From Thermodesulfovibrionales bacterium (GTDB lineage Bacteria > Nitrospirota > Thermodesulfovibrionia > Thermodesulfovibrionales > SM23-35): a DNA stretch of 56,816 nucleotides. Each line of letters begins with the position of its first letter. Within the stretch, counting starts at the first letter, position 1. The stretch covers positions 1 through 56,816 of the forward strand of contig JAVHLL010000015.1 of NCBI GenBank assembly GCA_031082155.1. The letters run 5' to 3'. The translations under genes were made by a program, and so were the position numbers. Shown piece after piece: positions 14,124-35,722 of the stretch. The notes beneath the pieces were generated by a model. The model ran no database searches. It was given only the letters and a program-made list of their open reading frames with translations, and had not been told where the DNA came from.

Positions 14124-17100
14124 TTAGAAACCTGTCGATGATAGTCTTCCTTCAAAATCCTGACCTGCGAAGCTGGCATTTGTTATCGTGATATTTCTGC
14201 TTAAAGGAGAGAATATATACCCTGCCCTGCTCGGGGTCACTACATAACTGCCAGAGGCCAGTCCGGTAATCGTGTAATTTCCAGATATATTTGTAGTGAC
14301 AGTCCGACTAACAGCACCACTGAGTGCTATGGTGACACCTGCCAGATTACGTCCTCTGGAATCCTTCACGTTTCCAGAGATACTGTATACACTTGCAGAA
14401 GCAGTCCCGGTAAAGTTCTGTCCTGTTACATTCACACCGCTGATCGTCACCGCCCTGTTTACCGGTGTAAATGTGTAGCCTGCAAGTGACGGCGTTACTG
14501 TATACGCCCCGTTTGCCAGACCCGCAAAACTGTAATTCCCCAATGCATCAGTCGTAGTCGTTGCATTGGCTGCCCCGGTCAGGGTCATTGTAACCCCCGC
14601 TATCGGTATACCGCCGGCTGTAGCGACTGTTCCGGAGATCGAGTATGTTATCGCAGTAGGAGTCCCGGTAAAGTCCTGTCCTGTTACATTCGCACCGCTG
14701 ATCGTCACCGCCCTGTTTACCGGTGTAAATGTGTAGCCTGCAAGTGACGGCGTTACTGTATACGCCCCGTTTGCCAGACCCGCAAAACTGTAATTCCCCA
14801 ATGCATCAGTCGTAGTCGTTGCATTGGCTGCCCCGGTCAGGGTCATTGTAACCCCCGCTATCGGTATACCGCCGGCTGTAGCGACTGTTCCGGAGATCGA
14901 GTATGTTATCGCAGTAGGAGTCCCGGTAAAGTCCTGTCCTGTTACATTCGCACCGCTGATCGTCACCGCCCTGTTTACCGGTGTAAATGTGTAGCCTGCA
15001 AGTGACGGCGTTACTGTATACGCCCCGTTTGCCAGACCTGCGAAACTGTAATTTCCCGATGCATCAGTCGTAGTCGTTGTATTGGCTGCCCCGGTCAGGG
15101 TTATGGTTACTCCTGCTATCGGTAAGCCAACCGGTGTCCTCACGCTGCCGGAGATTAAATAAATGGTCCCTAAATAGAATTCATCCGCACCACTATCTAT
15201 TCCACCACCCGGATTCGGACGAGCCTGGCCATCATAATCTGCAGACAATTCTGCGAAAGCAAGTGGCCCGGTTCCCAAATCAATTACAGGGGAACCACTA
15301 TTGATATGGTAGTTACCAGAGGGTTTCACGGGAATAAATCTGACTGTTATTGCATTCCCGCCTTCATCAAGTACCGTTGCGGAAAAGAGCTGATTCAGAT
15401 ATCCGCCCAGGAAACCCGGATTTGCCGAAATATTTGAAGGCCCGTACCCTGCTACGTCACTGAGAATACAGTTCTGCGGATTTAATAATCCGGCTACGCC
15501 ACTCACCTGTAGATCCCATGCAGGCATTGCCGGATTTGGCGCCAGTCCCCCGGCCCCCGCGTTCAGAGTGTGATCATTATAGAAAGAACGGTTCTGCCAG
15601 AGAATATTATTCACAAGCGACGGATCAGAGTACATTTGTCCGGTTGCATCAGCCAGAGCTCCGCTATGAGCCGACGAAACGATCCCCGCACCTTGCGGAG
15701 TTGAATCAAGACTCCCTGCGGTAAATGCATTTGCAGCAGTCGCAGTACTATCGTTGTGTGCAATAGTGTTATTGATTATAGTGGACTCAGAAACATCCTG
15801 TATTGCTATGCCACCCCCTGCAAATCCTGCAACATTGTTCACGATCATGTTGTTGAATATGTTCAGAGAATAAGGTGTAGTTGTAACATCCTGTCCGTTA
15901 AACCACAGCGCCCTTATACCACCACCGCTTCCGGAGCCAGAGAGGTTGCCCTGAATCAGGTTGGCATTTACTGTCACATTACCGGCTCCATCCCCGAGAG
16001 CTCCCGGTATCGCTCCATTGGCTATTTCACCGCCGATATAGATACCCCCTCCGTCTCCGCCGATTGCCGCACCGAAGAATACCTCATTGAATGTTATCTG
16101 GTTGTTGACAATCATGCCGTTGTTGCTGAGGCCGTCATGAGCAATGCCTCCCCCGTTCCAGCGCGAGAGATTTCCGACGACGATATTTTTCATAACACGG
16201 TAATTATCACTGCCGCTTGTAATATCAATTCCGCCGGCTCCGAATACACCACCGTTCCCGGCAATTCTGTTATATTGGATGGTAATGTATCCATTATTCA
16301 AAACACCTGTGCCGATATCAGGCTGTCCTAAGGTTATACCTCCGCCATAGCTCCCCTGATTAGCCCTTACCTTGTTATTGCTTATCATAAGATGGTACGA
16401 CTGGTTATATGCACAGACTCCGCCACCCTGCACTGCTCCAAAAATCATGAACGCGTCAACAAGCGGTTTCGATGCAGGAGGAGGATCAAGCACAAATCCT
16501 GAGCCGGGCACATCTCCGAAGACCATGACGCCGGGGGCTTCGTTCGCTCGGAACGGATCGTTTCCGCGTATGGCGACAATCTTGTCATGCCATGCCGCCA
16601 GTTTTTCCTGAGGGCTGGGATTCGCATAAATAATCGTTGCATTCGGATCATTAATCGAAGCTCCTGCTCCCGAACCCTGTAATATTATATTCTTGTAAAG
16701 AATCACGTTCTCATGGTATGTTCCGGGGTTTACGAGGACGATGTCGCCTGGTGATGAGGCATCTATTGCTGCCTGTATGGACTGTCCGCTCGATACGTGG
16801 CGCCGGACAACCGTGCCGCAGTCAACAACATGGAGGGTAACCCCAATCTCCGACGAAATTTTATTGTCGCCACGGATTACCATTAATTGTCCTGTCTGTG
16901 TGCCTATCGAAACTGTTGCCCTGATTGTCGTATTTGACCAGCTATTGATAGAAAGCGCCTGTCCTCCAACCATCACTACTCCTCTGATTGTGCCAAAACC
17001 GTAGTTGCGTGTAATCAGAGTCGGGCTTCCCGGCACTGTTGGATCATAATCGGGGTTAGGCACCTGTACGGACCCTGCAGAAGTTATCGTGAGAGAACTT

Positions 17101-20063
17101 CTGGTGTTCGCACAGACAAGCGGTCCCCCTTCAGGCCCAACAACCTTGGATATTACCGGTGTTCCGGTAGGAGGTTCCATATCTGTTCCACCCTTCGGAA
17201 ACCCTACGAATGCAGCTATGGGAACAATCGGAGTGTCCGTATATGATGTCGTGCCCGGCATGAATTGGAATGTCCATGGGGCTATAGCATATTGCGGGTC
17301 ATAATACGGATCAACTGTACCATTGGGCAGGAACGGATGATTCAACACAATAGTTAACACATTCGGTGAAACACCCGAAGGTGCTGCTATATTCATTGTA
17401 TAGGTGGACGGCAACAGTGCATTATATGTGCCGAATTCGTCTGAATACACCCTGGTTACCTCGTTCCCCTGCCAGTCCTGATAGGAAATCGGAATCCATG
17501 CAGGTGCTGACTTCTCGCCAAAAATAGGACTGTTCGGGTCGAATTCAGCAGCAAGGTCGTTGTTCACAAATCCGACGTTCCTGGCAGCCTTGGGAACCTG
17601 AGTAAAGAAGAAGAAGTCCGCTGCGGTATTCTGCCCTTCGTCTACAAGAACCCATTTCCTGTCACAGAGATTTGTCTGCATTCCCGGGAACCATCCAAAC
17701 ACCTCGATAAATTCATTTGGGAACAGAGACAGATACTGGGGAACAGGATGCAGTCCTCCTACACATGGGGGAAGTGTAGCCGCCGGGACATAGGTCTCTC
17801 CGAAATCTACGTTCTTGTCTTCTTCTTTTAACAGTTCATATCCCGGAGGGGTAACAGCCTCAATTATATAGTGTCCGGTAGGAAGGCCATCGACTTCCGT
17901 ACTTCCGGAATCAAGGCCCCCAGGGAAATATGAAGTGAAAGCATATCCACCGTCAAAAAGTCCCGGCCGTACCTGGTTCCAGGTACCGAAATTATCAAAA
18001 CATTCATTGACCGGGATGCCGTTGATAACCGGCAGGGTCTGGATACACCCTGACGGAAGATTGTCATCCCAGCTATCAGTCGTTGCAACATTGATTGCAT
18101 CGCCTGCGTTAAATTGAGAATTCAGGTTTTCGTCTATATCTTCAGGACCGGGGAAGTTGCCAAAAGGATAATTATCTGCATCTGCCTTTGTGACAATGCC
18201 GTCTCCGGTTATATCATCGATGAGACCGTCAGAGTCCACATCTGCATAGAGATTAACCTGAACCCTCGGTATCCCGGGCTCCCAGGGTTCAGCTGCAGCC
18301 TGCGAAGGATCATTCTCGGCCCTGGTAACGGCATAGTAGACAATACCCGATATGCCGCCGTTTTCACTCTCCCCATAATTTGCCTTTCCCCAGTCTATTA
18401 CGTTCGTCTGATTCAGGAACAGATGCATTGCCTGTGTGAGAACAGGGCCTGTCTCTGTCCTTGAAAGATTATTACCCGTATTGGGGTTCACTGATGCCTG
18501 AGGCTGGGGGGTCAAGGCATTGAAAGAAGGCATGATCCAGGCATTTGCCGGTGGAATCTGTCCCCCGTAATCAATTGCAGTAGTAATGCCTGTAGCCTTC
18601 ATCGTTGCAAAATCAACCTCTGTGACAAGCCATTTAAAGAATGGGAATATTTCTGTCAGCCCATATTCACCAGACGGATCGGAAACGGTTGCCTGATAAA
18701 TCGAACCGTCCCTGAAACGTATATTGACGGCCTTATTCCCTATACCTATTTCATCATCCAAGGCAGGATCGTCACAAAATTCTGTTATACATACATCACA
18801 GGTCGGCGTAAAACAATCCCTGAACCCATTCTGGTTGTTATCCTGGAATACAGTGCCTTCCAGCGTTCCGAACCAGCGGAATGAAAGAACATTGCCCAGA
18901 TTAATGTCTGTAGCCGGGACGGTAACCGCATTAAACCCAAAGAGCGCGTCAAGTGGTCTGTCCCATGTCACCAGTTGATAGGCACCTTGCGGAACCCCCG
19001 GGATTGAGAAATAACTGTCTGCATCGCACGGAAGCGCGATAAGCCCTGTCTGGGATGCAACATCATTGAGACCTATCCAGCATTCCGACACTGGTGGTCC
19101 GGGAAAGAATCCCTGTGTAGTGGGAGGCCGGGAAAAATGATTAAAGACATTTCTCCCTGATATTGTGCTTCCGCCCGGTCCGCTTCCAACCCAGGGTAAT
19201 CCATTCGGATCAACAAATCCGATGAAAACATGGAAAAAGCCGGTACCGAACCCTTCAAAGAATCTCTCGGGTTCATTTGCCTTTACCCATGCATCGACAG
19301 TGAGCGTTCCCTCTATTGTTGCCGTCTGTATCCAATTCGTTCCAAGAGGTGGAACAGCCCTGAGACCATATTTTCCGGGCGGCAGGTTTCTGATTAAAGC
19401 TTCGCCATTGGCATCTGTGATAATCGCGCCGGTCCCGATGGTGTTGACCGATCCGTCAGGATTATAGGTCGTTCCAAGCGGGTTTCCGAACGCATCGTCA
19501 GAGACAGTCCCTCCGAAGTCAAATAACTTGACGGTAAACCCTGAAAGCACCCGTTCACCGGCGTCAAATACATTATTTATTGTGTTGTGGTCCTCAAAGA
19601 CAAGAACGGATATCTGGGCTGTGGGTATCGGCAACCGGTGGACCTTCAGTGTCACATTGCCGCTCACCGACTGGATGTTTGCTCCCCCCATTGTGAATCC
19701 GCTGCCTGGCAGCACGGATATGAAATATTTTTTAGTGGCATCGAGCGGCATTCCATTTACGTCCTGGGTAACAGTCACGCTATTTGTACCTGACATACCT
19801 TTATTGACAAGCGGTGCGTGGCTTTTGTGAATGTCTACCCCTATACTGTCATGCACCCTGATTCCGGGAGGCTTCTGATTTGTGTTGTCCTCCTCAAGAA
19901 CCCACTGGAATCCGTTCACCGGAAGAGTGCAAGCATTGTTCTCGTCGCACCCTACAACGTTGACGGTGAACGCCAGCGCATACTCATGTGAAAGCATACC
20001 GGCAAGAACCACCAGCGCAATCATAAAGAAGTATGCGAATTTTTTCGTTGAAAAGGTATTCAT
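14124..20063 (-). CDS. Giant secreted multidomain surface protein (SdrD-like, beta-helix, repeat domains)
   Basis: 1979 residues from the ATG at 20063, chosen because AAAGGAGGAG lies eight bases upstream. A signal peptide ends near SHEYALA (~31). Then come SdrD/CNA-B-like modules (VFEDHNTINNVFDAGER, VFQDNNQNGFRDC, ~135-850), with a calcium-loop-like DVDSDGLIDDITGDG at ~608. An IPT/TIG-like region follows (~1000-1080), then a right-handed parallel beta-helix (~1086-1628, beginning SIQAAIDASSPGDIVLV). The C-terminus holds four ~86-residue carboxypeptidase-regulatory-like repeats. It ends QDFEGRLSSTGF, close to the end of the neighbouring cupredoxin protein. No sortase LPXTG motif or transmembrane tail is seen. 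Last gene of the multicopper oxidase operon; probably a surface scaffold. Function inferred only. Confidence 0.85.
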   Translation of the reverse strand: MNTFSTKKFAYFFMIALVVLAGMLSHEYALAFTVNVVGCDENNACTLPVNGFQWVLEEDNTNQKPPGIRVHDSIGVDIHKSHAPLVNKGMSGTNSVTVTQDVNGMPLDATKKYFISVLPGSGFTMGGANIQSVSGNVTLKVHRLPIPTAQISVLVFEDHNTINNVFDAGERVLSGFTVKLFDFGGTVSDDAFGNPLGTTYNPDGSVNTIGTGAIITDANGEALIRNLPPGKYGLRAVPPLGTNWIQTATIEGTLTVDAWVKANEPERFFEGFGTGFFHVFIGFVDPNGLPWVGSGPGGSTISGRNVFNHFSRPPTTQGFFPGPPVSECWIGLNDVASQTGLIALPCDADSYFSIPGVPQGAYQLVTWDRPLDALFGFNAVTVPATDINLGNVLSFRWFGTLEGTVFQDNNQNGFRDCFTPTCDVCITEFCDDPALDDEIGIGNKAVNIRFRDGSIYQATVSDPSGEYGLTEIFPFFKWLVTEVDFATMKATGITTAIDYGGQIPPANAWIMPSFNALTPQPQASVNPNTGNNLSRTETGPVLTQAMHLFLNQTNVIDWGKANYGESENGGISGIVYYAVTRAENDPSQAAAEPWEPGIPRVQVNLYADVDSDGLIDDITGDGIVTKADADNYPFGNFPGPEDIDENLNSQFNAGDAINVATTDSWDDNLPSGCIQTLPVINGIPVNECFDNFGTWNQVRPGLFDGGYAFTSYFPGGLDSGSTEVDGLPTGHYIIEAVTPPGYELLKEEDKNVDFGETYVPAATLPPCVGGLHPVPQYLSLFPNEFIEVFGWFPGMQTNLCDRKWVLVDEGQNTAADFFFFTQVPKAARNVGFVNNDLAAEFDPNSPIFGEKSAPAWIPISYQDWQGNEVTRVYSDEFGTYNALLPSTYTMNIAAPSGVSPNVLTIVLNHPFLPNGTVDPYYDPQYAIAPWTFQFMPGTTSYTDTPIVPIAAFVGFPKGGTDMEPPTGTPVISKVVGPEGGPLVCANTRSSLTITSAGSVQVPNPDYDPTVPGSPTLITRNYGFGTIRGVVMVGGQALSINSWSNTTIRATVSIGTQTGQLMVIRGDNKISSEIGVTLHVVDCGTVVRRHVSSGQSIQAAIDASSPGDIVLVNPGTYHENVILYKNIILQGSGAGASINDPNATIIYANPSPQEKLAAWHDKIVAIRGNDPFRANEAPGVMVFGDVPGSGFVLDPPPASKPLVDAFMIFGAVQGGGVCAYNQSYHLMISNNKVRANQGSYGGGITLGQPDIGTGVLNNGYITIQYNRIAGNGGVFGAGGIDITSGSDNYRVMKNIVVGNLSRWNGGGIAHDGLSNNGMIVNNQITFNEVFFGAAIGGDGGGIYIGGEIANGAIPGALGDGAGNVTVNANLIQGNLSGSGSGGGIRALWFNGQDVTTTPYSLNIFNNMIVNNVAGFAGGGIAIQDVSESTIINNTIAHNDSTATAANAFTAGSLDSTPQGAGIVSSAHSGALADATGQMYSDPSLVNNILWQNRSFYNDHTLNAGAGGLAPNPAMPAWDLQVSGVAGLLNPQNCILSDVAGYGPSNISANPGFLGGYLNQLFSATVLDEGGNAITVRFIPVKPSGNYHINSGSPVIDLGTGPLAFAELSADYDGQARPNPGGGIDSGADEFYLGTIYLISGSVRTPVGLPIAGVTITLTGAANTTTTTDASGNYSFAGLANGAYTVTPSLAGYTFTPVNRAVTISGANVTGQDFTGTPTAITYSISGTVATAGGIPIAGVTMTLTGAANATTTTDALGNYSFAGLANGAYTVTPSLAGYTFTPVNRAVTISGANVTGQDFTGTPTAITYSISGTVATAGGIPIAGVTMTLTGAANATTTTDALGNYSFAGLANGAYTVTPSLAGYTFTPVNRAVTISGVNVTGQNFTGTASASVYSISGNVKDSRGRNLAGVTIALSGAVSRTVTTNISGNYTITGLASGSYVVTPSRAGYIFSPLSRNITITNASFAGQDFEGRLSSTGF
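14404..15177 (-). repeat. Three tandem 258-bp repeats inside the giant gene
   Basis: Copies start at 14404, 14662 and 14920, exactly 258 bases (86 codons) apart. Copies one and two are almost identical at the DNA level except near the first 30 bases; the third diverges toward 15177. Each encodes one carboxypeptidase-regulatory-like beta-sandwich. A more diverged fourth unit lies at 14124-14403. Confidence 0.92.
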
Positions 20064-20124
20064 TTCAACTCCTCCTTTGTTTTCCATTCAAAATCTGTCA
20101 TTTTCGCCATAAATATAACGCTCA

Positions 20125-22203
20125 TTATGGTGTTGAGCTTATCTTTCCTTCAAATTCCTGGCCGGTAATGTTCTGATTTGTTATTGTGACAGTCCTGCTT
20201 AGCGGAGAAAAGACATATCCGGTTTTGCTCGGATTCACCGTATATGTACCGGGCAACAACCCGGAGAACTGGTAATTACCGAGTGCATCCGTGAGCATAG
20301 TCATGGTTGCAGCTCCGGTCAGCCTCATTGTTACTCCGGACATCAGCCGGCCGTTTGAGTCCTTTACATACCCGCGTATAAAATATGTCGCCGCTGCGGT
20401 CCCTGTAAAGTTCTGGTTCGTTACGTTTGCATTACTTATCGTCACATTTCTGTTTATAGGAGTAAATGAATACCCTGTCAGACTTGGGGTAACTGTGTAC
20501 GCACCGTTTGTCAGACCTGCGAAACTGTAATTTCCCGATGCGTCAGTCGTAGCCGTTGCATTGGCTGCTCCGGTCAGGGTCATCGTGACCCCCGCTATCG
20601 GTGTACCGCCGGCTGTAGCGACTGTTCCGGAAATCAAGTATGTCAAAGGACTACCGGTGAAGTTCTGGCCTGTCACATTCGCATTGCTGATCGTCACCGC
20701 CCTGTTTACCGGTGAGAACGTATAGCCTGCAAGAGACGGTGTTACTGTATACGCACCGTTTGTCAGACCTGCGAAACTGTAATTTCCCGATGCGTCAGTC
20801 GTAGCCGTTGCATTGGCTGCTCCGGTCAGGGTCATCGTGACCCCCGCTATCGGTGTACCGCCGGCTGTAGCGACTGTTCCGGAAATCGATGCTCCGATAC
20901 CCCCTGTAAAGGTTGCAGTGACTGACTTGGCCGCATTCATAGTTAAGGTACACGTTCCAAGCCCCGTGCAGTCACCGGACCATCCGGCAAAGGAAGAAAC
21001 CGCTGCTGCGGTGGCAGACAAAACAACCGATGTACCGTCATTAATAAGTTCTGTACAGTCCACATTCCCCATCCCGCAATTGATACCACCCGGAATACTG
21101 ACAAGCTCGACCTTACCCGTTCCAGTCCCTGCCAGGTTCACAGTGAGGAGATATTGCGTGGCAGATTGTACCATGAGATATCTGAACATGCCGCCTGGTG
21201 AAGCTGCTGCGTTGGTCAGATAAAGTCTTCTGTCGTAGAGAGGATAATACCCCGCCGATGGCGCCGATATAAGAACATCAGCGGTTTTCCCGGCCGAAAG
21301 GTGAAGAGAGTATTGATCTTTTTGATAAGGATAGAGTTTTCCGTCCTCAGCGATAATTTTTACATAAAATCCCTGAAAAACCGGCACATGGTCATCGAGT
21401 CCTGCATTCAAGAACCGTAGTAACGTAGTTTGTGTTGGTGTCCCTATTGGTATGGCACTTTCTCCATACGTAAAAGGTTTTCCATTGATGAGAAAATATT
21501 TCGGATTATAATGGATTGTGCTGGTTGGATTCGCACCGTATGTCCCTGCAGCAACCGCAGTATGGATTACCGGATCTATCTCACTGAATACAAGCGTAAG
21601 ATCGATATCATATGATATTGCAGGATATGCCTGCAGAGGCGGGCCGGCTGCTGCATTCACCTCTAGGACTCCGAACAGCCCCATCTGTATCTGAACAGAT
21701 GGATGGGTTGCGCTCTGATAAAGGTATGTTCCTGCTTTGATATTGTTCCACGTATAGGTAGCGGTACCGCCTCCCTGGGCAGCTTCATGGGCAAAGGACC
21801 TCACCCTTTGCGTCACGGAGATCCGGTTTCCGCTTGAGCCATCGGTCCACGTCGGCGTCATAACAGCTATCTGGCCGGGGATATGGATCGATACAGGTTC
21901 TGTGTAAAGACCTGTCAGATTATTTTGAACATGGAGATTTACTGTATCCCCTGCCAGCGCATTTATCTGCGGTCCCGGCACTGAAGGCAATTGTCCGGGC
22001 AGAGGAGTATACGTATTGTCCGTCTGGACAAACCCCCACATGGTGATCATCTGGCCATCCGGCATTGTGACTGTGAATGTATCCGCCCTCAGATATACAT
22101 CCACGACAGCTGCAGAAGATACCTGCAGCATAACAGTCAGGACGAAGAATAAAGACAGGAGTATCTTCATCCCTGCTCTTCTATTCATGGTACATGTATC
22201 CAT
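20125..22203 (-). CDS. Cupredoxin-fold multicopper-oxidase-like protein lacking copper ligands, with repeat tail
   Basis: 692 residues with signal peptide (ends near VSSA). Residues ~35-350 align by pattern with the two downstream-type multicopper oxidases in this operon, but the copper motifs are degenerate: VSIHIPGQ replaces the HWHG site and YLYQSATHPSVQIQMGLFG replaces the HCH...M site. An InlB/Ig-like module follows (AGWSGDCTG...VTATFTG, ~360-440), then three carboxypeptidase-regulatory-like repeats, ending QEFEGKISSTP. AAGGAGG precedes the ATG. The gap to the previous gene is eleven bases. It probably serves as a structural subunit or adaptor linking the oxidase to the surface. An independent enzymatic role seems unlikely. 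Confidence 0.78.
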   Translation of the reverse strand: MDTCTMNRRAGMKILLSLFFVLTVMLQVSSAAVVDVYLRADTFTVTMPDGQMITMWGFVQTDNTYTPLPGQLPSVPGPQINALAGDTVNLHVQNNLTGLYTEPVSIHIPGQIAVMTPTWTDGSSGNRISVTQRVRSFAHEAAQGGGTATYTWNNIKAGTYLYQSATHPSVQIQMGLFGVLEVNAAAGPPLQAYPAISYDIDLTLVFSEIDPVIHTAVAAGTYGANPTSTIHYNPKYFLINGKPFTYGESAIPIGTPTQTTLLRFLNAGLDDHVPVFQGFYVKIIAEDGKLYPYQKDQYSLHLSAGKTADVLISAPSAGYYPLYDRRLYLTNAAASPGGMFRYLMVQSATQYLLTVNLAGTGTGKVELVSIPGGINCGMGNVDCTELINDGTSVVLSATAAAVSSFAGWSGDCTGLGTCTLTMNAAKSVTATFTGGIGASISGTVATAGGTPIAGVTMTLTGAANATATTDASGNYSFAGLTNGAYTVTPSLAGYTFSPVNRAVTISNANVTGQNFTGSPLTYLISGTVATAGGTPIAGVTMTLTGAANATATTDASGNYSFAGLTNGAYTVTPSLTGYSFTPINRNVTISNANVTNQNFTGTAAATYFIRGYVKDSNGRLMSGVTMRLTGAATMTMLTDALGNYQFSGLLPGTYTVNPSKTGYVFSPLSRTVTITNQNITGQEFEGKISSTP
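20501..20887 (-). repeat. Exact 135-bp duplication within repeat domains
   Basis: Positions 20501-20635 and 20753-20887 are identical over 135 bases, 252 bases apart (84 codons). They encode consecutive repeat domains very like those of the giant protein at 14404-15177, so the two genes share a mobile or converting repeat unit. Confidence 0.9.
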
Positions 22204-22214
22204 TTGTATCCTCC

Positions 22215-23537
22215 TTACTCTGCAGGCAAAATGACTGACGGATATTCAACGGATGCCCATGTCATCATTCCACCGGGGAAAATATTATTCGTTGTCAGCT
22301 CTTTTTCATTATGGGAATGCCACATGAAGAATAGACCTGCAGTCGGATTCAGACCGCCTTCCCCTGGAGGTAGAGCACCCGGAGAACCGATATACGGACT
22401 GCCGCTGTAAAATATGCCAAAAGTCAGATCATTCTGGTCCGGCAGTCCAACAGGCAAAGGTTTTCCGTGATTGGGGCAGTATTCCTTTGTTACAGGATCA
22501 AAATTATCGGGTCCCGGGTTACAGGTATGAGAGGTAGTTCCATAAATATCCCAGCCGATATTCTCACCTGTCCAGGTAAATAAAGCATCCGTTGTCTGGC
22601 CGGGTGCAACTGTCGTGGTAAATAAGCCTTCGGATAAATCTTCGCCTGCAGGACCTTTCAGAATCCTCCCATCCCTTGCAATCACATAGTGCTGATTCCC
22701 ATGCATGTGGTGAGGATGGAGATCCCTAACCCCACCTATCATTCTCACGAGGATTTTTTCACCCGGATGCATCCTTGCCATTGCGCTGTATGGCTGGTAC
22801 GGAAGATAGGGTGCAAAATTCTTCGCTACGGTATCGAGCCCTGCACGGCCGTTTATGAACCAGTACACAGGATATGCTATCGTGTTGTCCACATTTGCGG
22901 TTTTATTCAACAAAACAAGATCATGGATCGTGTGATCAATGTCGGTGAGGAGCTGCAGGTATTCTCTGTGATAACAGGAATCGACAGTATTGTATGCGCA
23001 TCCTGCAAATCCTGCCGGCGTGGTAATCGCTGCAGGCCTTACGATCAGTGCACCCAAAAGGCCCATTTCCACCTGTAATTCCGGCCTTGTTCCGCTATAG
23101 TAGATATACGTTCCCGGTTCGCTTGCCGCAAACGTATAAGAAACACTTCCTCCGGGTGGTGCTTCGCGGGTAAGCATACCGGGCACACCACCAACGGCAT
23201 TAACATTATTCTGTCCCGGGAAGACAATAGAGACCGGTACAGGAAGAGTATTTGTCAAATTTACGGTTACCGTCTGCCCCTGATTGACAATTAGGGTGGG
23301 ACCGGGATACTGGAATCTTACTCTTGCGGTAGATGCATTCGCAAACCCCCACATGAATATGCTTTTCCCGTCATCTGCTATGATATTGCCTTTCATGGCT
23401 CTCAGATTGAAAGTCGGACCGCTGATACCATAAATCTTGGCATCGGCCTGCTGGACTCCAAAAAGGAAAACAAGCGCCAGAATGACGAGTGCTTCCATGA
23501 TATTAATTTTTTTTATCATCATTATTTCCTCCCTCAT
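22215..23537 (-). CDS. Multicopper oxidase homologue carrying only the second half of a trinuclear copper site
   Basis: 440 residues with a signal peptide ending near QQADA (33). Two cupredoxin domains. Domain 1 (~45-170) has lost the ligands: VSIVFPGQ (~102-109) for HWHG and YIYYSGTRPELQVEMGLLG (~144-162) for the HCH site. Domain 2 keeps HPHHMHG (His277 and His279 as the likely pair) and WHSHNEKE (His407, His409), the histidine pairs of a domain without type-1 copper. It therefore seems to need a partner domain to complete a trinuclear centre; the first gene of the operon encodes one. Good ribosome-binding sequence at both ATG 23537 and ATG 23522. Confidence 0.85.
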   Translation of the reverse strand: MREEIMMIKKINIMEALVILALVFLFGVQQADAKIYGISGPTFNLRAMKGNIIADDGKSIFMWGFANASTARVRFQYPGPTLIVNQGQTVTVNLTNTLPVPVSIVFPGQNNVNAVGGVPGMLTREAPPGGSVSYTFAASEPGTYIYYSGTRPELQVEMGLLGALIVRPAAITTPAGFAGCAYNTVDSCYHREYLQLLTDIDHTIHDLVLLNKTANVDNTIAYPVYWFINGRAGLDTVAKNFAPYLPYQPYSAMARMHPGEKILVRMIGGVRDLHPHHMHGNQHYVIARDGRILKGPAGEDLSEGLFTTTVAPGQTTDALFTWTGENIGWDIYGTTSHTCNPGPDNFDPVTKEYCPNHGKPLPVGLPDQNDLTFGIFYSGSPYIGSPGALPPGEGGLNPTAGLFFMWHSHNEKELTTNNIFPGGMMTWASVEYPSVILPAE

Positions 23538-23564
23538 TTCGTTCCTCCTCCAAAATATTTCCTG

Positions 23565-24752
23565 CTATGGAGAAATAACAATCTCGGTCATCATACCGCC
23601 GAAATCTTCCTGATCGTTGCTCAGTTCGTTCAAATTGCTGGTATAGAGAAAAAATCGCTGAGGTGCTGCTATTGGTCCGATAACCGATGTATCTATAAGC
23701 ACATCAGCTGACTGTCCACCCCCAAGGGTGATGGAATTCGTCTCATAATAAAGGTCGTGTCCTGCAGTACCCCGCAGCAGCATCGCATCCTTGCCTACCA
23801 CCTTCATGGGAAGGTTCGGAGAGATCAGGGTATAGAATCTCACAGTTGCCAAACTGGAAATACGCAGGAGCAGCATATCGCCCCACTGAGCTTCTATTAA
23901 TGAAGGCAGATTCTGGGACGGCTTGAAATTATTCTCCGCACTTGTGCCGAGCGTAGTTGAAGGGTTTATCGTATCAGGATATCCCCTGCCGTTTATCAGC
24001 GGATAGGTGTCTTCCATTGCAGCAAAGGGAAGCGGCTGAACATTCAGGTTGGCGTCATGGAACAAAGGATCGATAGACGTTATCTGTATCGGATAGTCTT
24101 TGGTATATCCTGTCGAACCGTCCTCGTCGTTGTAGGCAAATTGCGTAAAACCATTCAGGAGCTGTCCGTCCTGAAGAGGAGTCACGTAGAGAGTTCCCAG
24201 CATTCCCATTTGCATGTGCTCTGTTGCTTCAACATGGCAATGGTACATGTAAGTCCCCGGACCCGGCACCTGATAGTAATAGGTCAGACTCGCATTCGGG
24301 TTAATTGCTATCGATGCCATTGGTTCGCCGTCAAATACAGTCGCTGCATTCGGAAATCCGTGCCAGTGAACGGTGTGAGGGTCGAAAAGGTCCGGACGCA
24401 TCGACATCGGAAGCGTCGTCAATGTCAGATAAAACTCCTGCCCTTCCTTCACCTTGATAAGCGGAGCAGGTATTCTTGCATCAAGCTCAGCGGTAACGAG
24501 GATCTGATCAAGCGGGAGTTGGTTGGTAACATCGCTGAAGCCGAAAGTATAGAGAACCCTTCCGTCGGCCATTGTTGCAAATCCGTCGCTACCTGTGATG
24601 TGCTTGCAGATAACATTCGGATTCGCAGTATTCCCCTGGTCATCAATAATGGTATAGGGGCATTGAACGGATACTGCCGCTTCAGATATGGCCATTCCCA
24701 AAATGAGAACAGCGAGCAGGGAAAAGAGAATTATTAACCTTGCCTTGTTCAT
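23565..24752 (-). CDS. Multicopper oxidase homologue with type-1 copper site and first half of trinuclear site
   Basis: 395 residues from the ATG at 24752 (AAAGGAG upstream; signal peptide MNKARLIILF... ends near ISEAA). An upstream in-frame ATG at 24830 also has AAGGAG but would bury the signal. Domain 1 contains DPHTVHWHG (His126, His129, His131) and YHCHVEATEHMQMGM (His171, Cys172, His173, His179, Met184), which are type-1 copper ligands plus four trinuclear histidines. Domain 2 has no HxH pairs. Two-domain multicopper oxidases need both sets. Known roles of such enzymes include Mn(II), Fe(II), Cu(I) or phenol oxidation; the substrate here is unknown. First gene of the operon. Confidence 0.88.
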   Translation of the reverse strand: MNKARLIILFSLLAVLILGMAISEAAVSVQCPYTIIDDQGNTANPNVICKHITGSDGFATMADGRVLYTFGFSDVTNQLPLDQILVTAELDARIPAPLIKVKEGQEFYLTLTTLPMSMRPDLFDPHTVHWHGFPNAATVFDGEPMASIAINPNASLTYYYQVPGPGTYMYHCHVEATEHMQMGMLGTLYVTPLQDGQLLNGFTQFAYNDEDGSTGYTKDYPIQITSIDPLFHDANLNVQPLPFAAMEDTYPLINGRGYPDTINPSTTLGTSAENNFKPSQNLPSLIEAQWGDMLLLRISSLATVRFYTLISPNLPMKVVGKDAMLLRGTAGHDLYYETNSITLGGGQSADVLIDTSVIGPIAAPQRFFLYTSNLNELSNDQEDFGGMMTEIVISP

Positions 24753-25284: not shown

Positions 25285-25313
25285 TTGAAGGCACCCCAAT
25301 AATTTGCTAATCT
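25285..25313 (+). promoter_or_regulatory. Possible sigma-70 promoter of the YtkA-like gene
   Basis: TTGAAG (25285-25290) and TAATCT (25308-25313) are 17 bases apart, about 70 bases before the ATG at 25385. Confidence 0.4.
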
Positions 25314-25384
25314 TATATGAACCAATTTACAAAAACGGGAACCATTTAATCGTTCTTTATGGTATCCAAATTAAGGAGGCATAC

Positions 25385-25825
25385 ATGAGATCATTCATCA
25401 TGGTTTTGGTTATTTGCTCATTTTTTCTCCCCACCGCTATTTCACTAAGTGCGGGAACAGGTTCTCCGGAAGAACCATCGGTTGTCCTCACCAAGCCTAC
25501 AGAGAATAAGCTTTTTACTGTTGAGATTCGTCTTTCCAGAAAAAACCTTGTGGTGGGACAAAACAGCGCGACACTCTTTCTTTGTGATGATAAGCAAAAC
25601 AGCATAAACGGCGCTGAGGTGAGGGTTCTGCCTGTTATCACCGCCCATGGCGAAAGCACCTCGCCCAGACCGTTTGTGCAGGAAAAATCAGACGGTAACT
25701 ACTCCGTTGAGAACCTCTATATTGATATGGAAGGAAACTGGACATTAAAAATCATGATACGAAAAGATGGAATTTCCGACAATGTTTCTTTTGATTTCCC
25801 GGGTGTAAAAAGAAGAGCACCTTAA
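25385..25825 (+). CDS. Secreted YtkA-like protein
   Basis: 146 residues from the ATG at 25385, preceded by AAGGAGG; an earlier in-frame start at 25304 has none. A signal peptide (MRSFIMVLVICSFFLPTAISLSAG) leads into a beta-sandwich like the YtkA/FixH-type domain (VEIRLSRKNLVVGQNSATLFL ... NWTLKIMIRKDG). Such domains often accompany copper-handling genes. It stands between the multicopper oxidase operon and a NosL/ABC operon and has a distant paralogue at 30324. No copper-binding Met or His cluster is evident, so the role is inferred from context. Confidence 0.7.
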   Translation: MRSFIMVLVICSFFLPTAISLSAGTGSPEEPSVVLTKPTENKLFTVEIRLSRKNLVVGQNSATLFLCDDKQNSINGAEVRVLPVITAHGESTSPRPFVQEKSDGNYSVENLYIDMEGNWTLKIMIRKDGISDNVSFDFPGVKRRAP

Positions 25826-25858
25826 CCCGAAACGAGCAACATCAGATGCGTTGTTTTT

Positions 25859-26863
25859 TTAATAGCCCTTCAACATCAGCGGGGATGAGATCATAGCATA
25901 GGTTGCCACTGCACTGAAGAGGAAATATGAGATAAGCGTGACGGCAATTAATTTCCTTTGAGTCACAGGGACAGCATCATTCAGGCTCTCTATGGTACGG
26001 AAAGATGCAAGCACCCCAACTCCAGACCCTGTTACCGCAGCACAGAGGAGCGGGAGATAAAAAACATAACCGAGGTAGCGATACTCTCTCTGGAGCATGC
26101 AAAACGGACAGTGATGGGTAGGAAGTTCATAGAGATAAAGAGAGAAAAATGAGATGACTGCAGCTATGGATATCAGGAAGGTTATCCCGCTTGCAAGGGA
26201 AAACAGCACTCCTTTACTGTTTTCCTTCCACAGGAAAATAAACCCGGACATGAAAGTACATGCAATGCTGGAATAAAACGCTATCTTAAGCGGAATCACC
26301 GGCAATGAAGCCAGTTCAGAAGCAACAGTGCCCTCTCCGCTACTGAACTGGCTGCCGCAGCATGAAGTGATAAGGTCTGCTTTCATCCCCGCGAAATACA
26401 GTCCCTGAATCGCTGCCTCCAGGAAAACAAATGGCGTTATTACAAGCAGCAACGCATATTTTTTTTTTATTAGCGGATAGTCATATGCCCTGTTATCTAC
26501 ATAATTAACGATCAGCCAGAGACCCGCGAGAATAAAATTGACCATCTTCAGGATGAGTGCAGGATAACCGTATTCGTTTACGTTCAACGTTCCGGCAGCG
26601 CACATCGCGCCGACAAAAAGTTCGTGGAGACGGTCGGCAGTAAAAATGAACAGAAAAAAAGACGCAAGCTGAAACCAGAGCACATACATCATTAAGGTAG
26701 AAATGAGATAGGTTTTGCGCTCCAGATTCAATTGAAGCTCGCTCCCGCTCCTGATATCCCAGCTCCTGAAAATGGATACCCCGAAGAATGCCGATAGCAG
26801 AAGCATAACGCTCACCATAAGAGATCCGGCAATGAGTGCAATGACCGCGGGATGAATGATCAC
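25859..26863 (-). CDS. Polytopic membrane protein with DsbB-like CxxC motif
   Basis: 334 residues, GTG start overlapping the ABC ATPase stop as GTGA. About eight to nine hydrophobic helices are visible. HHCPFCMLQREYRY (~250) recalls the redox CxxC of DsbB/VKOR-like proteins, and TSCCGSQF (~167) offers another cysteine pair. It is not a recognised transporter family. Position at the end of the NosL-NosL-permease-ATPase cluster suggests work on copper or thiol redox at the membrane. Function unknown. Confidence 0.72.
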   Translation of the reverse strand: MIIHPAVIALIAGSLMVSVMLLLSAFFGVSIFRSWDIRSGSELQLNLERKTYLISTLMMYVLWFQLASFFLFIFTADRLHELFVGAMCAAGTLNVNEYGYPALILKMVNFILAGLWLIVNYVDNRAYDYPLIKKKYALLLVITPFVFLEAAIQGLYFAGMKADLITSCCGSQFSSGEGTVASELASLPVIPLKIAFYSSIACTFMSGFIFLWKENSKGVLFSLASGITFLISIAAVISFFSLYLYELPTHHCPFCMLQREYRYLGYVFYLPLLCAAVTGSGVGVLASFRTIESLNDAVPVTQRKLIAVTLISYFLFSAVATYAMISSPLMLKGY

Positions 26864-27546
26864 GCTCTGTTTTCCGAACCTGTTATTGTCCCGTCGCGCA
26901 TTTCGACGACGCGGTCTATAATTTTACAATCGTATACAATAGGGTCGTGGCTCGCAATAAGAACTGTCTTGCCTCTGCTCTTCATCTCGCCGAGGATGTC
27001 CATAAATTCCTCCGACAGTTTTGTATCGAGGTGAGCAGTTGGTTCATCCGCGATGATCACTTCAGGGTCGTTCATAAGTGCGCGGGCGATGCTCACCCGC
27101 TGGGCCTCTCCTCCTGAAAGCCACTCGATTTTCGATTTGGCTTTATCCTCAATCTTGAGAATATCCAGAATCTGAAGCGTCCTTTTCTTCATAGTTCCGT
27201 ACGGATCTCCACAGGGAAAAGCTGGAAGCATCACATTCTCGATCACAGACAATCCTTTTATGAGGTTGAACTGCTGGAACACAAAACCGAACGTCATACG
27301 TCTGGTCCCGGTGAGAAATCTCTCCGGCAGGCTCGTGATCTCTTTGCCATTGACCAGGACCCTCCCTGCCGTTGGCCTGATCATGCAGCCGATGATGCTG
27401 AGGAGCGTCGTCTTTCCTGATCCGCTCGGTCCTTTCAGGACAGTCACTCTTCCGGGGTCTATTGACATACTGATATTCCTGAGTGCGGTAAATTCATTCT
27501 GTTTTCCCGCATTGTAGACCTTTGTGACCGCGGACAGTTGTATCAT
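26860..27546 (-). CDS. ABC transporter ATPase, MacB/LolD subfamily
   Basis: 228 residues. Walker A GPSGSGKTT (~39), Q-loop FVFQQFNLI, signature LSGGEAQR (~144), Walker B VIIADEPTAHLD and the H-loop IASHDP are complete. The partner permease gene lies 19 bases upstream. MacB/LolD ATPases power mechanical transmission across the periplasm or release of lipoproteins rather than classical import. With NosL genes next door, delivery or removal of copper at envelope proteins is a reasonable inference. Confidence 0.95.
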   Translation of the reverse strand: MIQLSAVTKVYNAGKQNEFTALRNISMSIDPGRVTVLKGPSGSGKTTLLSIIGCMIRPTAGRVLVNGKEITSLPERFLTGTRRMTFGFVFQQFNLIKGLSVIENVMLPAFPCGDPYGTMKKRTLQILDILKIEDKAKSKIEWLSGGEAQRVSIARALMNDPEVIIADEPTAHLDTKLSEEFMDILGEMKSRGKTVLIASHDPIVYDCKIIDRVVEMRDGTITGSENRA

Positions 27547-27565
27547 AGGGAAAGCCCTCCCATAG

Positions 27566-28699
27566 TCATAACCGCATTACAGAATCGGGGTCTATCGTTG
27601 CAGCCCTCCATGAAGGGATTATAGTCGCAACGGTATACGGGGCAACCGTAAGAAAAAAGATCGTTGTTATTTGAAACATATCAAGGAATGGTACGAGCCT
27701 GAATTCAGGGTAAAGAACAGACCACCCTTTCAACACCGGCATGAAGAGAAAAGCCGAAGCGAAATAAATATGGATATACGCGAAGAACACGCCGAGGAAG
27801 AATGCGGAAAGCGAAATAATTAAACCTTCCCACGTTTTCATGAAAAGCACGTCTGATGTCTCCCATCCGATACCTTTCAATATCCCTATTTCTTTTTTCT
27901 CCTCTGAACTCAGTCCGGTTGCTTTATCCCATGCAAATATTATGAACGCGAATGCGGCTCCTGAAATGACTGCAAGGAGAATGCCGCTACGCCAATCGAA
28001 AATCGCTTCATAAGTTCTCATTATCTCATTTCTTGTTATCGGCCTCGTATCAGGCAGTATTCGCCGGATCTTGTCAGTTATAGCCTGCAGTTCCCTCGTA
28101 TTTCTTACCTTAAGGATCATATCCGTATAGAAACCTTTCTGCATTCCCGTCACTTTCCTGAAATCATACTCGGAGAGCAAGATAAGATCAGAGGATACGA
28201 TTTCAGAATCAGGGGAGAGAATATCGGCGACTTCCAGACTCGTGTAGGAACCGTCAAGAGTTTTGAAAGGAAGAATATCTCCTTTCCCCGCGAGAAAAGT
28301 TTTTGAGACGCCATTGCCGATAACAATATATCCGGGACCGTATAGGAACTCATCAGGGACGACGAACGTGTAATTCGCCTGTACACCCGGTTCAAAGTAA
28401 TATCCCCACAACCGCCCTTTCACCTCCTGAACTCCCCTGATGGATTTGAGCTGTCCGATATACTGTTCCGGGATAAGATCATGCCTGCCGGCGATTGTTC
28501 TCTGCACAACGACCTCCGGGCTGTTTTCCAAAAGGATTTGGGATTCTCTTTTGATCGATTCTGATGAAAAAATAATCGAGGAAACAAGAAAAATTATACC
28601 GGTGTAGACAACGAAAAGGGCCGAGTTTTTCCCTTTGCGCCTCAACAGTGAGTTGAGGGCAAAGTCCAGAATATTTCTCTGTTTATTGATCCAACCCAT
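27566..28699 (-). CDS. FtsX/MacB-like ABC transporter permease
   Basis: 377 residues from the ATG at 28699, which overlaps the end of the upstream small gene by 17 bases. An N-terminal helix (~20-40) is followed by a periplasmic domain (~45-245) and three C-terminal helices with the FtsX pattern (EEKKEIGILKGIGWETSDVLFMKTWEG). It pairs with the ATPase at 26860. The start rests on coupling, since no strong Shine-Dalgarno is present. Confidence 0.9.
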   Translation of the reverse strand: MGWINKQRNILDFALNSLLRRKGKNSALFVVYTGIIFLVSSIIFSSESIKRESQILLENSPEVVVQRTIAGRHDLIPEQYIGQLKSIRGVQEVKGRLWGYYFEPGVQANYTFVVPDEFLYGPGYIVIGNGVSKTFLAGKGDILPFKTLDGSYTSLEVADILSPDSEIVSSDLILLSEYDFRKVTGMQKGFYTDMILKVRNTRELQAITDKIRRILPDTRPITRNEIMRTYEAIFDWRSGILLAVISGAAFAFIIFAWDKATGLSSEEKKEIGILKGIGWETSDVLFMKTWEGLIISLSAFFLGVFFAYIHIYFASAFLFMPVLKGWSVLYPEFRLVPFLDMFQITTIFFLTVAPYTVATIIPSWRAATIDPDSVMRL

Positions 28700-28994
28700 A
28701 AGAGTGAATATGTGAAGGAGGGAAAACAATAGCCCCGGACGGGAAATGCTCAAACGACATCGGATGGTCCTGGAATGCCGTATGCAGATCAGCCATTGAA
28801 GGGTGACGGGTATAACGGGCATCAGTGAACAGGCTGAGGTCGGTGAGATGAAGTCCCCTTACCATTCTGGCTTTCGCCTGAATGTTTGGCATTGCATGCC
28901 TTACGGAAAAAGCGGCATGAACGGTCATGAGCAGCAGGAGCATTAAACAGATCACCAAGAAAGCTATAAAGAAGTCTGACTTGCGGGACAGCAT
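28683..28994 (-). CDS. Small membrane-anchored protein of the NosL/ABC cluster
   Basis: 103 residues. An N-terminal helix (FLVICLMLLLLMTVHAAF) anchors a short extracytoplasmic domain with many histidines (for example DLHTAFQDHPMSFEHFPSG and PPSHIHSYG). Its ATG overlaps the NosL stop (TAATG) and its end overlaps the permease start. The tight packing in the cluster makes it a genuine gene. Histidine and methionine content would suit copper binding, but no named family is claimed. Confidence 0.75.
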   Translation of the reverse strand: MLSRKSDFFIAFLVICLMLLLLMTVHAAFSVRHAMPNIQAKARMVRGLHLTDLSLFTDARYTRHPSMADLHTAFQDHPMSFEHFPSGAIVFPPSHIHSYGLDQ

Positions 28995-29467
28995 TAATCG
29001 AGGCCTTCGATCGTTTTTGGCGTTATATCCTGAAACTTCAGGATGGCGTTACCCTTGTGGTCCCTCATGAATTCCCGGGCGTCAGAGTAGTTCCTGAACA
29101 GAATAAGTTCACGACCCATGGGGCCGTATACATCACTCCCTATCACATAGAATGCTTTTCGGCCGTCTATGAGGACCAAGTCATAATAATCTGTGCCATA
29201 AAGTGAATCAATCTCCTCATGTGTCTTTTTCGGATTGTATTTTTGCAGGTTGAAATAGTATTTGAACATATCTTTTACCCCATCGAATACCGCATATGAA
29301 CCATCCCGGAAAATAATCTCAGCGACGAAGTCAGGGTATTTCGCTACGAACATCCCGCATACCGGGCACTTGTCTTTTTGTGCCGGGGTCAAAGGTTTCT
29401 TTTGTCCGGCTACAGCAGGCACTGTTACAATATAAAGCATGACAAGAGTGATTATCCAAATTCTCAT
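28994..29467 (-). CDS. nosL: NosL-like copper-binding protein
   Basis: 157 residues from the ATG at 29467 (GGAGAAG upstream); a TTG at 29485 is a weaker alternative. Signal peptide ends near VPAVAG. The NosL motif CPVCGMFV (~36-43) is present, with the FRDGSYAVFDGVKDMFKYYF region that follows in the family. NosL is a periplasmic Cu(I) chaperone for nitrous oxide reductase. There is no nosZ here, so it may serve other copper proteins, possibly the multicopper oxidases. No lipobox cysteine is seen. Confidence 0.88.
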   Translation of the reverse strand: MRIWIITLVMLYIVTVPAVAGQKKPLTPAQKDKCPVCGMFVAKYPDFVAEIIFRDGSYAVFDGVKDMFKYYFNLQKYNPKKTHEEIDSLYGTDYYDLVLIDGRKAFYVIGSDVYGPMGRELILFRNYSDAREFMRDHKGNAILKFQDITPKTIEGLD

Positions 29468-29657
29468 TCTCTTCTCCCGGTTCAACTTTCCAAAGAGGAA
29501 GGAAATCCTTACTTCTCCGGTCGTTCAGTCTATTTAGATTCTATTCATACCGTATGATTCCGATAAAAAATCGTCATTCTCTCGAAGGCGGAAATCGAGT
29601 AGTTTCAATGCCCGGTCAAGCCGTACAATGACAAATTATGAAGGCTATAAACAGACT

Positions 29658-30164
29658 CTATTTATGCTCCATTTTCTTCATTTTCATCATTTTTCGCTTA
29701 TCACGGATCATTTTCGTATCGGCATACATATCCTCATATGCAGCCTTCATCGCTTCATCAAAGGTAGCGGCAACGCCTCCGTTTTCCTTCATGAAAGCCT
29801 CTGCATCACTTTTATTCTCAAATGCCCATTTCGGTCTCTTGGTCATTACTCCGGGTTTATTCCCCCCTATGACCCACGGTGCTTTCTCAGCGTCAATCAG
29901 TTTTTTTGTGTTATAGTCCCCGACGTGTATCTTCACCGGAGTCTTATCAATATGAAGAGCAAGCTCCAGGGAGGCACAGTGAATACTGCAAAACCCCTGC
30001 TTTTTGCCGTCGTCATATTCTATAACCATCCAGCTGTGTCCGAATTTTTCCTTCTCCATGCCGCAGAACGGACATGCATCTTTGCCATGTGTTTCCGCAA
30101 AACCAATCGAACTCATGCAGAGCACCAAAGAAATCGTGATAAGTACCATCGCGCTTCTTTTCAT
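29658..30164 (-). CDS. Second NosL-like protein with Met/Lys-rich tail
   Basis: 168 residues, signal peptide ending near IGFA, strong GAAGGAGG. It carries CPFCGMEKEKFGHSW (~31-45) and a second cysteine pair FCSIHCAS (~58-65). The tail KMMKMKKMEHK is rich in methionine and lysine, suited to copper. It resembles NosL-like and copper-sensor-related small proteins. It is separated by 190 bases from the first NosL gene and divergent from the YtkA-like/CusBA genes. Confidence 0.85.
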   Translation of the reverse strand: MKRSAMVLITISLVLCMSSIGFAETHGKDACPFCGMEKEKFGHSWMVIEYDDGKKQGFCSIHCASLELALHIDKTPVKIHVGDYNTKKLIDAEKAPWVIGGNKPGVMTKRPKWAFENKSDAEAFMKENGGVAATFDEAMKAAYEDMYADTKMIRDKRKMMKMKKMEHK

Positions 30165-30323
30165 AATTTTTCCTCCTTCATGGAAAATATTCCGAAATAT
30201 TTAGATTGCATAAAAGTCTGACTGCTATAAAATGTTACCACAAAAATTATGCTTTGTAAGCTCTTTCTCTTAACTGCTGTTGTCTGAGCGTCCTTCCACC
30301 AGACGCATGAAGTATAATTAAGT

Positions 30324-30737: not shown

Positions 30738-30852
30738 ACAGCATGAGGCGTGCATGGTCTGTTGCAGGGACTTGACTCTGCTGCGCATACACGATACATT
30801 TGTATTGACCGTTGGAGGAGCAGCAGTGAGAATAGTCTTTGATATCATGTAA
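30727..30852 (+). CDS. Possible 41-aa Cys/His-rich small protein
   Basis: A frame from ATG 30727 to TAA 30850-30852 overlaps the end of the YtkA-like gene and ends inside the cusB ribosome-binding site (TAAGGAG). The product contains HEACMVCC (His6, Cys9, Cys12, Cys13) and His22, a candidate metal site. There is no Shine-Dalgarno, and 38 open codons could occur by chance. It may be a coupled leader for cusB. Confidence 0.3.
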   Translation: MSVEQHEACMVCCRDLTLLRIHDTFVLTVGGAAVRIVFDIM

Positions 30853-30865
30853 GGAGTTGCCCGGG

Positions 30866-35100: not shown

Positions 35101-35292
35101 GCAGGACTCCTCCCTATTCTGTTCAGTTCAGGTATAGGGTCTGATGTTATGAAAAGGATTGCCGCACCCATGGTAGGAGGGATCGTCACGTCAACGCTTC
35201 TGGAACTCCTGATCTACCCCGCCCTCTTCATGATATGGAAAGAGAGAGAAATCAGGGGTGCTACTCCTCCACAATCAGGTTCTCTATCTTAA
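32107..35292 (+). CDS. cusA: Heavy-metal efflux RND pump, Cu(I)/Ag(I) type
   Basis: 1061 residues with twelve-helix RND topology. GTMVDASIIMVENAHKR and IDAETGVIMLLYLDLAY contain the proton-relay acidic residues. Methionines corresponding to the CusA metal triad are visible in FMPPLYEGSLFYMP, PAPLEMFET and RIDMLSTGIRTPLG, which supports Cu/Ag rather than Co/Zn/Cd specificity. It expels monovalent copper from the periplasm or cytoplasm. Its 3' end overlaps a convergent gene by 32 bases. Confidence 0.97.
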   Translation: MISRIIEFSAKNRFIVLIFVVLLTGWGIWSLKNTPLDALPDLSETQVIIYTDWPGRSPDLVEDQITYPISSTLLAAPEVEVVRGFSYLGSSFIYVIFKEGTDIYWARSRIIEYLQSIRNKIPSDVNPVLGPDATSLGWGFSYAIVDESGSLNLADLRSLQDFTVKLAVESTPGVAQVASIGGFIRQYQVTVDPARLLAYDIPLTAVLDSVRRSNIDVEGRVIESAGREFAVRGRGYIKNISDLGNTVVSTDRAGTPVLLKDVARIQLGPEIRRGIADLDGKGEVAGGIVIVRFGENVLNVLDRVKKKLKDIEPNLPKGVKIVPTYDRSDLIHKSVDTLRNKLITISLVVGISCVIFLFHLPSTFVILITLPLAILMSFICMHALNVTSNIMSLSGIAIAIGTMVDASIIMVENAHKRLADWEKHGSRGSKTEVIIDAAKEVGPSLFFSLLVITVAFLPVFFLQAQAGKLFRPLAYTKTFAMLFASFLAITLTPMLMTLLIRGKTRSEEENPFNIFLHKIYGPAVRFVLAKKRMVIALALVIMAITAYPFLKLGSEFMPPLYEGSLFYMPVTVPGPSITEVSKLLQIQDKLLKTIPEVSQVFGKAGRAETATDPAPLEMFETVINLKPENQWREGITVDMLKDEMNDILTIPGVANSFTYPIKARIDMLSTGIRTPLGIKVIGTELKEIERVALEIEQRLRDIPGTRSIYAERVNTGYYLDINVKRESAARYNLNVNDVLDIVQSAAGGLNLTTTVEGRERYPVNVRYARELRDNSESIRNLLVPLPYTPIVSNPVSNVFRGSSMVPVSELADIHVVKGPNVIKSEEGFLTAYIYIDYTGSNIQSYMEKAGEKISSVNISPGYQILWSGDFEYLLKTRQRLKMVIPLTLIIIFFLLYFNTKSLVKTAIILLAVPFSLVGSFWLLYILNYNMSTAVWIGIIAMAGIDAETGVIMLLYLDLAYTQWKKEGRMKTAEDLKEAIMFGAVRRIRPKHMTVTVIIAGLLPILFSSGIGSDVMKRIAAPMVGGIVTSTLLELLIYPALFMIWKEREIRGATPPQSGSLS

Positions 35293-35722
35293 AATCGCCG
35301 ATCATGACCGTTACCTTGTCTCCTGTTTTCACCAGTCCGTTCCTGTTCGCAAAGAATATGAGGTAGTCGCGGCCCTCTGCAGGCCTGACAGAAGTCTGAC
35401 GCATTGCTCCAAGCCTTGTCGTAGGGACATGCATCACAGTTCCGTTCTCCTGGTGGATAAGGGTTGCCTTCTCCTGACGGTTCAGAATAGAAGACGCCTT
35501 TTCGGAATCGGTAACACAATAACGGAAATCAAGCATATAGTCAGCAGCGGTGAGCCTGATCCCCTTGACCTGAATGCCCCACTGTTCTTCAATCTTTTTC
35601 CTCTCCGCATCACTGCTGGTCTTCGTCTCTTCCCCGGAACCTTTCTTGTCTTCCGCATATACAGGGAATACAACGAGGAGTACGAAAAAAAACATGATAA
35701 GATATCGTAGTATCTTTTGCAT
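35261..35722 (-). CDS. Conserved periplasmic protein convergent with cusA
   Basis: 153 residues with a signal peptide (ends near FPVYA) and AGGAGA upstream. After a charged linker, the segment EEQWGIQVKGIRLTAADYMLDFRY begins a beta-rich domain ending VMIGDFKIENLIVEE. I know no function. The tail-to-tail overlap with cusA makes antisense effects possible. It lacks Cys/Met clusters expected of a metal carrier. Confidence 0.75.
   Translation of the reverse strand: MQKILRYLIMFFFVLLVVFPVYAEDKKGSGEETKTSSDAERKKIEEQWGIQVKGIRLTAADYMLDFRYCVTDSEKASSILNRQEKATLIHQENGTVMHVPTTRLGAMRQTSVRPAEGRDYLIFFANRNGLVKTGDKVTVMIGDFKIENLIVEE

Follow-up and report, generated by a model that had tools for sequence, protein, structure and literature searches.

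A trinuclear copper site probably split between two gene products in a bacterial group of two-domain multicopper oxidases

Results

Two adjacent genes encode complementary halves of a copper site

The DNA analysed here, hereafter called the window, is a stretch of 56,816 nucleotides from a Thermodesulfovibrionales bacterium (contig JAVHLL010000015.1). Transcribed from its minus strand, in this order, are the genes encoding proteins B, A, C and D. A gene for a small protein, E, lies ~10.5 kb off the operon. The features are listed below.

23565..24752, minus strand: protein B, a two-domain cupredoxin protein with a Sec-type signal (translation, Pfam Cu-oxidase_3/_2, fold match)
24360..24377, minus strand: B His126-x-x-His129-x-His131 (HTVHWH), the type-1 His and two trinuclear His, invariant in 28/28
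24201..24242, minus strand: B His171-Cys172-His173...His179...Met184, the type-1 Cys, His and Met and two trinuclear His, invariant in 28/28
22215..23537, minus strand: protein A, a two-domain cupredoxin protein with a Sec-type signal (translation, Pfam, fold match)
22701..22718, minus strand: A His274-x-x-His277-x-His279, invariant in 29/29
22311..22319, minus strand: A His407-Ser408-His409, both His invariant in 29/29
20125..22203, minus strand: protein C, a third two-domain paralogue that has no copper ligands and continues into CarboxypepD_reg repeats
14124..20087, minus strand: protein D, a secreted protein of 1987 aa with CarboxypepD_reg/SdrD_B repeats and a NosD-like beta-helix stretch, a conserved operon member
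35261..35722, minus strand: protein E, a small secreted protein with the motif GIxxxxIRLTAxGxMLDFRYRVxD

Translation of B from the ATG at position 24752 puts all ligands of a type-1 copper site, together with four trinuclear-cluster histidines, in domain 1. The ligands are His126, His129, His131, His171, Cys172, His173, His179 and Met184, and the HTVHWH motif aligns with HTIHWHG of 3g5w. Domain 2 of B has no ligands; YTLISPN and YTSNL occupy the would-be ligand positions. Conversely, domain 1 of A has no ligands, and reads VFPGQ and YYSG, while domain 2 carries four trinuclear histidines (His277, His279, His407 and His409; HPHHMHG...MWHSHNE). An earlier reading, made from the letters alone (the sequence-only reading), had described this arrangement. 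Its coordinates and residue numbers are exact for both proteins. Protein A is without a type-1 site because the residue equivalent to the ligand Cys is Ser408; among 29 orthologues this position is Ser in 28, Asp in one and Cys in none. His274, at the usual type-1 position, is also invariant, as is His205 (29/29). The type-1 ligands are thus found in the N-terminal domain of B, and neither A nor C has a type-1 site.

Both A and B match the cupredoxin fold, which places them in the multicopper oxidase/cupredoxin superfamily. PF07732 and PF07731 scored above cut-off for the two proteins, and PF07732 did so for C. The best fold matches of A were the type C enzymes 3g5w and 2zwn (Z 23.8, 263–265 residues, 3.0 Å, both domains); B matched two-domain and longer cupredoxin chains, again across both domains. 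Hence, like type C enzymes, A and B have two cupredoxin domains per chain; the A half aligns with domain 2, and the B half with domain 1, of the solved type C structures. A further type C trait, the presence of all eight trinuclear histidines on one gene product, is absent; at every locus four are on B and four on A.

Ordinary complete two-domain enzymes of the same phylum served as a control. In these, one chain carries both HTIHWHG..HCH (domain 1) and HxxHxHGH..HDH (domain 2). Since the ordinary enzymes hold all eight histidines in a single chain, the motifs missing from A and B are losses at homologous positions. Copper nitrite reductase (NirK) shares the two-domain cupredoxin trimer fold, but the NirK-like sequences of the phylum differ at the A and B motifs and are without the HxH pairs of B and A. 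The NirK type-2 copper His pattern was not found in A and B, and NCBIfam Cu_nitrite_red scored far below cut-off.

The partition of ligands is conserved in distant bacteria

We searched 396 genomes of the window's phylum. Full-length A was present in 20, and a separate search recovered full-length B in the same 20; no genome had only one of the two. Nine further loci came from a scan of genome contigs and are labelled Deltaproteobacteria, Desulfuromonadales/Geobacter, Gammaproteobacteria, Proteobacteria and Bacteroidales MAGs. The class I set comprises 29 loci, the window and 28 others from several phyla. One B gene runs off the end of its contig and was left out, so the B alignment has 28 members. 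The sequence-only reading had named conserved pairing in other genomes as a check. Such pairing is what we see: at 29/29 loci B and A are neighbours that share strand and gene order, and they occur one-to-one in the 20 genomes. Across the 29 loci C adjoins A or is fused to D, one contig being too broken for C.

The four A histidines are invariant in 29/29 orthologues, which are 37–59% identical to the window protein, and all lie within 52 invariant positions of 440 (hypergeometric P 1.8e-4). Similarly, the eight B ligands are invariant in 28/28 orthologues of 38–60% identity, and all lie within 49 invariant positions of 421 (P 2e-8). Invariant ligands at 37–60% identity indicate strict selection on two complementary half-sites. 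The proposal that four and four make up the eight histidines of one trinuclear site is thus matched by a complementary partition at every locus, distant bacteria included.

Half of the ancestral ligands are gone from A and half from B, as expected if both were decayed copies of a complete oxidase that had lost different halves by drift. We rejected this reading, which is extremely improbable, because the remaining ligands are strictly conserved across wide divergence. Furthermore, the same halves are found in every aligned orthologue and the frames are open in nearly all loci. Homologues with complete sites, of which A and B would be decayed copies, were what the sequence-only reading had set against itself; no aligned A or B orthologue has a complete site.

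A mononuclear or partial metal site is also plausible in each protein taken alone. Hence, B might be a blue-copper electron carrier and A a copper-binding or storage protein, with no trinuclear cluster. We consider such separate roles very unlikely. The four trinuclear histidines of B are invariant in 28/28, including the pair that flanks Cys172, and this pair would be useless without a cluster. In addition, full-length A and B were never apart in the 396 genomes and, in the second class described below, B itself lacks an export signal.

Mixed trimers are conceivable, in which another complete multicopper oxidase of the cell completes the site of B or of A. However, in the window's own genome (2.65 Mb, estimated completeness 100%) PF07732, PF07731 and PF00394 matched no proteins beyond the operon genes. 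With no other multicopper-oxidase domain detected in the genome, B and A have only each other. A partner from elsewhere was therefore rejected, and we give it almost no weight.

The operon is present in cultured bacteria. In a tblastn search of plasmid records, Cupriavidus metallidurans CH34 and Paraburkholderia proved to carry class I, and their ligands are partitioned in the same way. The order there is B-A-(C fused to D)-E. In CH34 (NC_007974.2, minus strand) B occupies positions 1345058-1346572, A 1343416-1345047, C-D 1335302-1343398 and E 1334801-1335289. The P. largidicola copies are annotated as hypothetical proteins (BEI72461.1, BEI72460.1, BEI72459.1 and BEI72458.1). Because C. metallidurans CH34 is in culture, the system is testable.

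In a second class of split pairs, most A genes have a twin-arginine signal

Thirteen adjacent pairs from the same phylum show the same partition and form class II. In 12 of these the A-type gene has a twin-arginine (Tat) signal (RR-D/E/Q-F/V-L/I) and is followed downstream by a B-type gene without a signal; one class II A was matched by Pfam TAT_signal. The remaining pair, L063, has the same ligand partition and no Tat signal.

Tat pairs: L064, L068, L107-L113, L115, L116 and L120, with several copies in G270

The Tat system carries folded proteins, and a partner without a signal can ride along (PMC4273604). As class II B is signal-less, it most likely leaves the cytoplasm bound to A, that is, as a preformed complex. 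In E. coli PaoABC one twin-arginine subunit exports its signal-less partners (PMC4273604), as we propose for class II; the enzymes themselves are unrelated. Class II pairs are without a third gene. Hence, C is not needed in every version of the system.

Class II also has named examples. In Indioceanicola profundi one split pair was fully read and a second is indicated by search. In Arthrobacter sp. FW305-BF8 (L121:3719-6066) the A and B parts are joined and the frames differ around positions 5190-5224; this may be a frameshift, a sequencing error or recoding. The joined Arthrobacter gene lies beside an Nramp transporter and a metal-dependent regulator. Paenarthrobacter plasmid pTC1 carries a class II A, and no B was found on the plasmid, an observation that speaks against the split-site model. 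Another class II A-type ORF (L114:6097-7002; G113:C16) stops before the second HxH motif, and no B was found nearby. It is possibly a broken copy.

Proteins C, D and E

Protein C, directly downstream of A, was absent from the sequence-only reading. In an alignment of 27 loci it has two cupredoxin-like domains, in which no ligand motif was found. A phylogenetic tree placed each subunit type in one group, with C beside A (SH-aLRT 95). The AU test did not reject grouping of B with C (p 0.31), nor other placements of C, nor of A beside B. Since these alternatives stand, we keep the origin of C from A as a suggestion only. B, A and C are encoded by three ORFs, and each has a signal region of its own; six domains in one chain, as in ceruloplasmin, were not encountered. 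We also considered, and rejected, a hint of read-through from an in-frame B stop and A start. The two are in frame in 12/29 loci, near the third expected by chance.

Some lineages have C and D fused into a single protein of ~2170–2720 aa, with C at the N-terminus of D. The C-termini of C and D share CarboxypepD_reg repeats that are ~75% identical. Protein C is probably a third ring subunit and D probably a surface anchor. The usual place of the gene for E is directly after C or C-D. Homologues of E were found at 20/28 other class I loci, as well as in Cupriavidus and Paraburkholderia, and E has no match in Pfam or NCBIfam. A role for E as an assembly factor is a guess.

A proposed model for assembly of the probable split oxidase

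The sequences make it highly likely that the trinuclear site is split between A and B. A working enzyme would almost certainly be built from different protein chains and not from copies of one and, to judge from the ligand counts, neither A nor B should be active alone. We infer that the proteins form a physical complex, load copper and have oxidase activity, and we infer likewise the ring order and the roles of C and D.

We propose a heteromeric oxidase that descends from two-domain homotrimers of type C. In it, the type-1 copper and one half of the trinuclear cluster would reside in domain 1 of B, and the other half of the cluster in domain 2 of A. These two domains would meet at a subunit interface, as domains 1 and 2 of adjacent identical subunits do in known two-domain oxidases. 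Electrons would enter at the type-1 copper of B and travel through the His-Cys-His segment to the cluster shared by both proteins, where O2 would be reduced. Protein C would most likely take the third position of a six-domain ring, and link it to the large surface protein D. Such a ring would be a ceruloplasmin-like enzyme in unfused form, with a single trinuclear site and not three.

On balance we favour a B:A:C ring of 1:1:1 composition. With B, A and C at the three positions, eight histidines come together only at the interface of B domain 1 and A domain 2, and the other two interfaces have none. This is the distribution seen, and the ligand content of B, A and C is compatible with a single trinuclear site among six domains. 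The sequence-only reading had proposed a hetero-oligomer of A and B in 1:1 or 3:3 form. The hetero-oligomer is supported by the conserved partition, the adjacent one-to-one pairing, the lack of any other partner and the Tat signals of class II; the two-protein make-up is amended, as C is probably needed.

The same split site could instead be formed by A and B alone, in a four-domain ring, an A2B or AB2 complex or something larger, with C only an anchor or adaptor to D. We regard this as a real but less probable alternative. It fits the class II pairs, which have no C gene, and the fusion of C to D in several lineages. Moreover, AlphaFold2 did not resolve the ring. For this modelling, fusions were read through the stop codons as one chain and rows from whole-genome loci were left out of the alignments. 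With 17-row alignments, pTM was 0.47 for the B-A fusion of the window and 0.39 for the B-A-C fusion of locus L039. Many MAFFT runs put rows of A or C in the place of B or A, and only alignments with correct row identities were folded. The top rows from VIA-align held no six-domain chain, which is uninformative because the domain order of the ring would differ. Against assembly from A and B alone, C retains both cupredoxin domains and is present in those class I loci that extend far enough to include it. The two-domain oxidases known so far are trimers (PMC13151041), and exactly two ligand-free interfaces are predicted by the B:A:C ring.

Discussion

Catalysis by laccases, ceruloplasmin and their relatives centres on the trinuclear cluster. 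To our knowledge, the trinuclear ligands of such enzymes come from one gene product, even when the site lies between subunits. Fungal laccases of Pleurotus are described as heterodimeric in the literature. In these heterodimeric laccases the whole copper site lies in one chain. We found no heteromeric trinuclear oxidase in the open-access papers searched.

Two-domain oxidases are divided into types A, B and C by the location of the type-1 copper, and each of their trinuclear sites receives residues from two protomers of the trimer (PMC13151041). The best matches by fold and motif are of type C, namely the Nitrosomonas europaea blue copper oxidase (3g5w) and a metagenomic laccase (2zwn). Both have two cupredoxin domains, with the type-1 site in domain 1 and trinuclear halves in domains 1 and 2. 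The difference is that one product of the type C enzymes has all ligands and forms a homotrimer, whereas here the halves are on different products and there is a ligand-free third paralogue.

Ceruloplasmin, hephaestin and the bacterial MnxG type have six cupredoxin domains and one trinuclear site, as proposed for B:A:C, but do so in one fused chain as opposed to three separate chains. The bacterial six-domain type also differs in having its type-1 copper in domain 2 and its cluster between domains 2 and 3. Only one trinuclear site is kept in six-domain multicopper proteins (PMC3600357). Ceruloplasmin has been proposed to descend from a six-domain ancestor that had three trinuclear sites, some of which were lost later; in this scheme fusion comes first (PMC3600357). 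A split oxidase bears on how one of the three ancestral sites came to be kept. If our model is true, redundant copper sites can be lost through duplication and complementary loss in a heterotrimer, with no prior six-domain fusion. The two halves, on different genes in many bacteria, would be a natural experiment in the passage from homomeric to heteromeric enzymes.

We lean towards the view that these proteins represent a widespread, undescribed family of obligately heteromeric oxidases, with a B:A:C ring and a Tat-exported two-gene class. The examples found here are annotated as hypothetical proteins or as generic multicopper oxidases. As a consequence, entire enzymes of this kind may go unnoticed or be taken for inactive ones.

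Other features of the window

Copper-related genes lie at positions 25304-35292. They encode a YtkA-like protein, an ABC ATPase, an FtsX-type permease, two NosL proteins and CusB/CusA-type efflux components. The NosL, CusBA and YtkA genes are not conserved neighbours at other oxidase loci. Hence, they were left out of our inference of function, and a metal ion such as Cu(I) as the substrate is a guess drawn from these nearby genes. Further along, a formate-dehydrogenase-like gene (49268-52042, plus strand) consists of two ORFs that make up one frame across an in-frame TGA at 50384-50386. From its context (CARY-U-HSASVAGL), the TGA is probably a selenocysteine codon.
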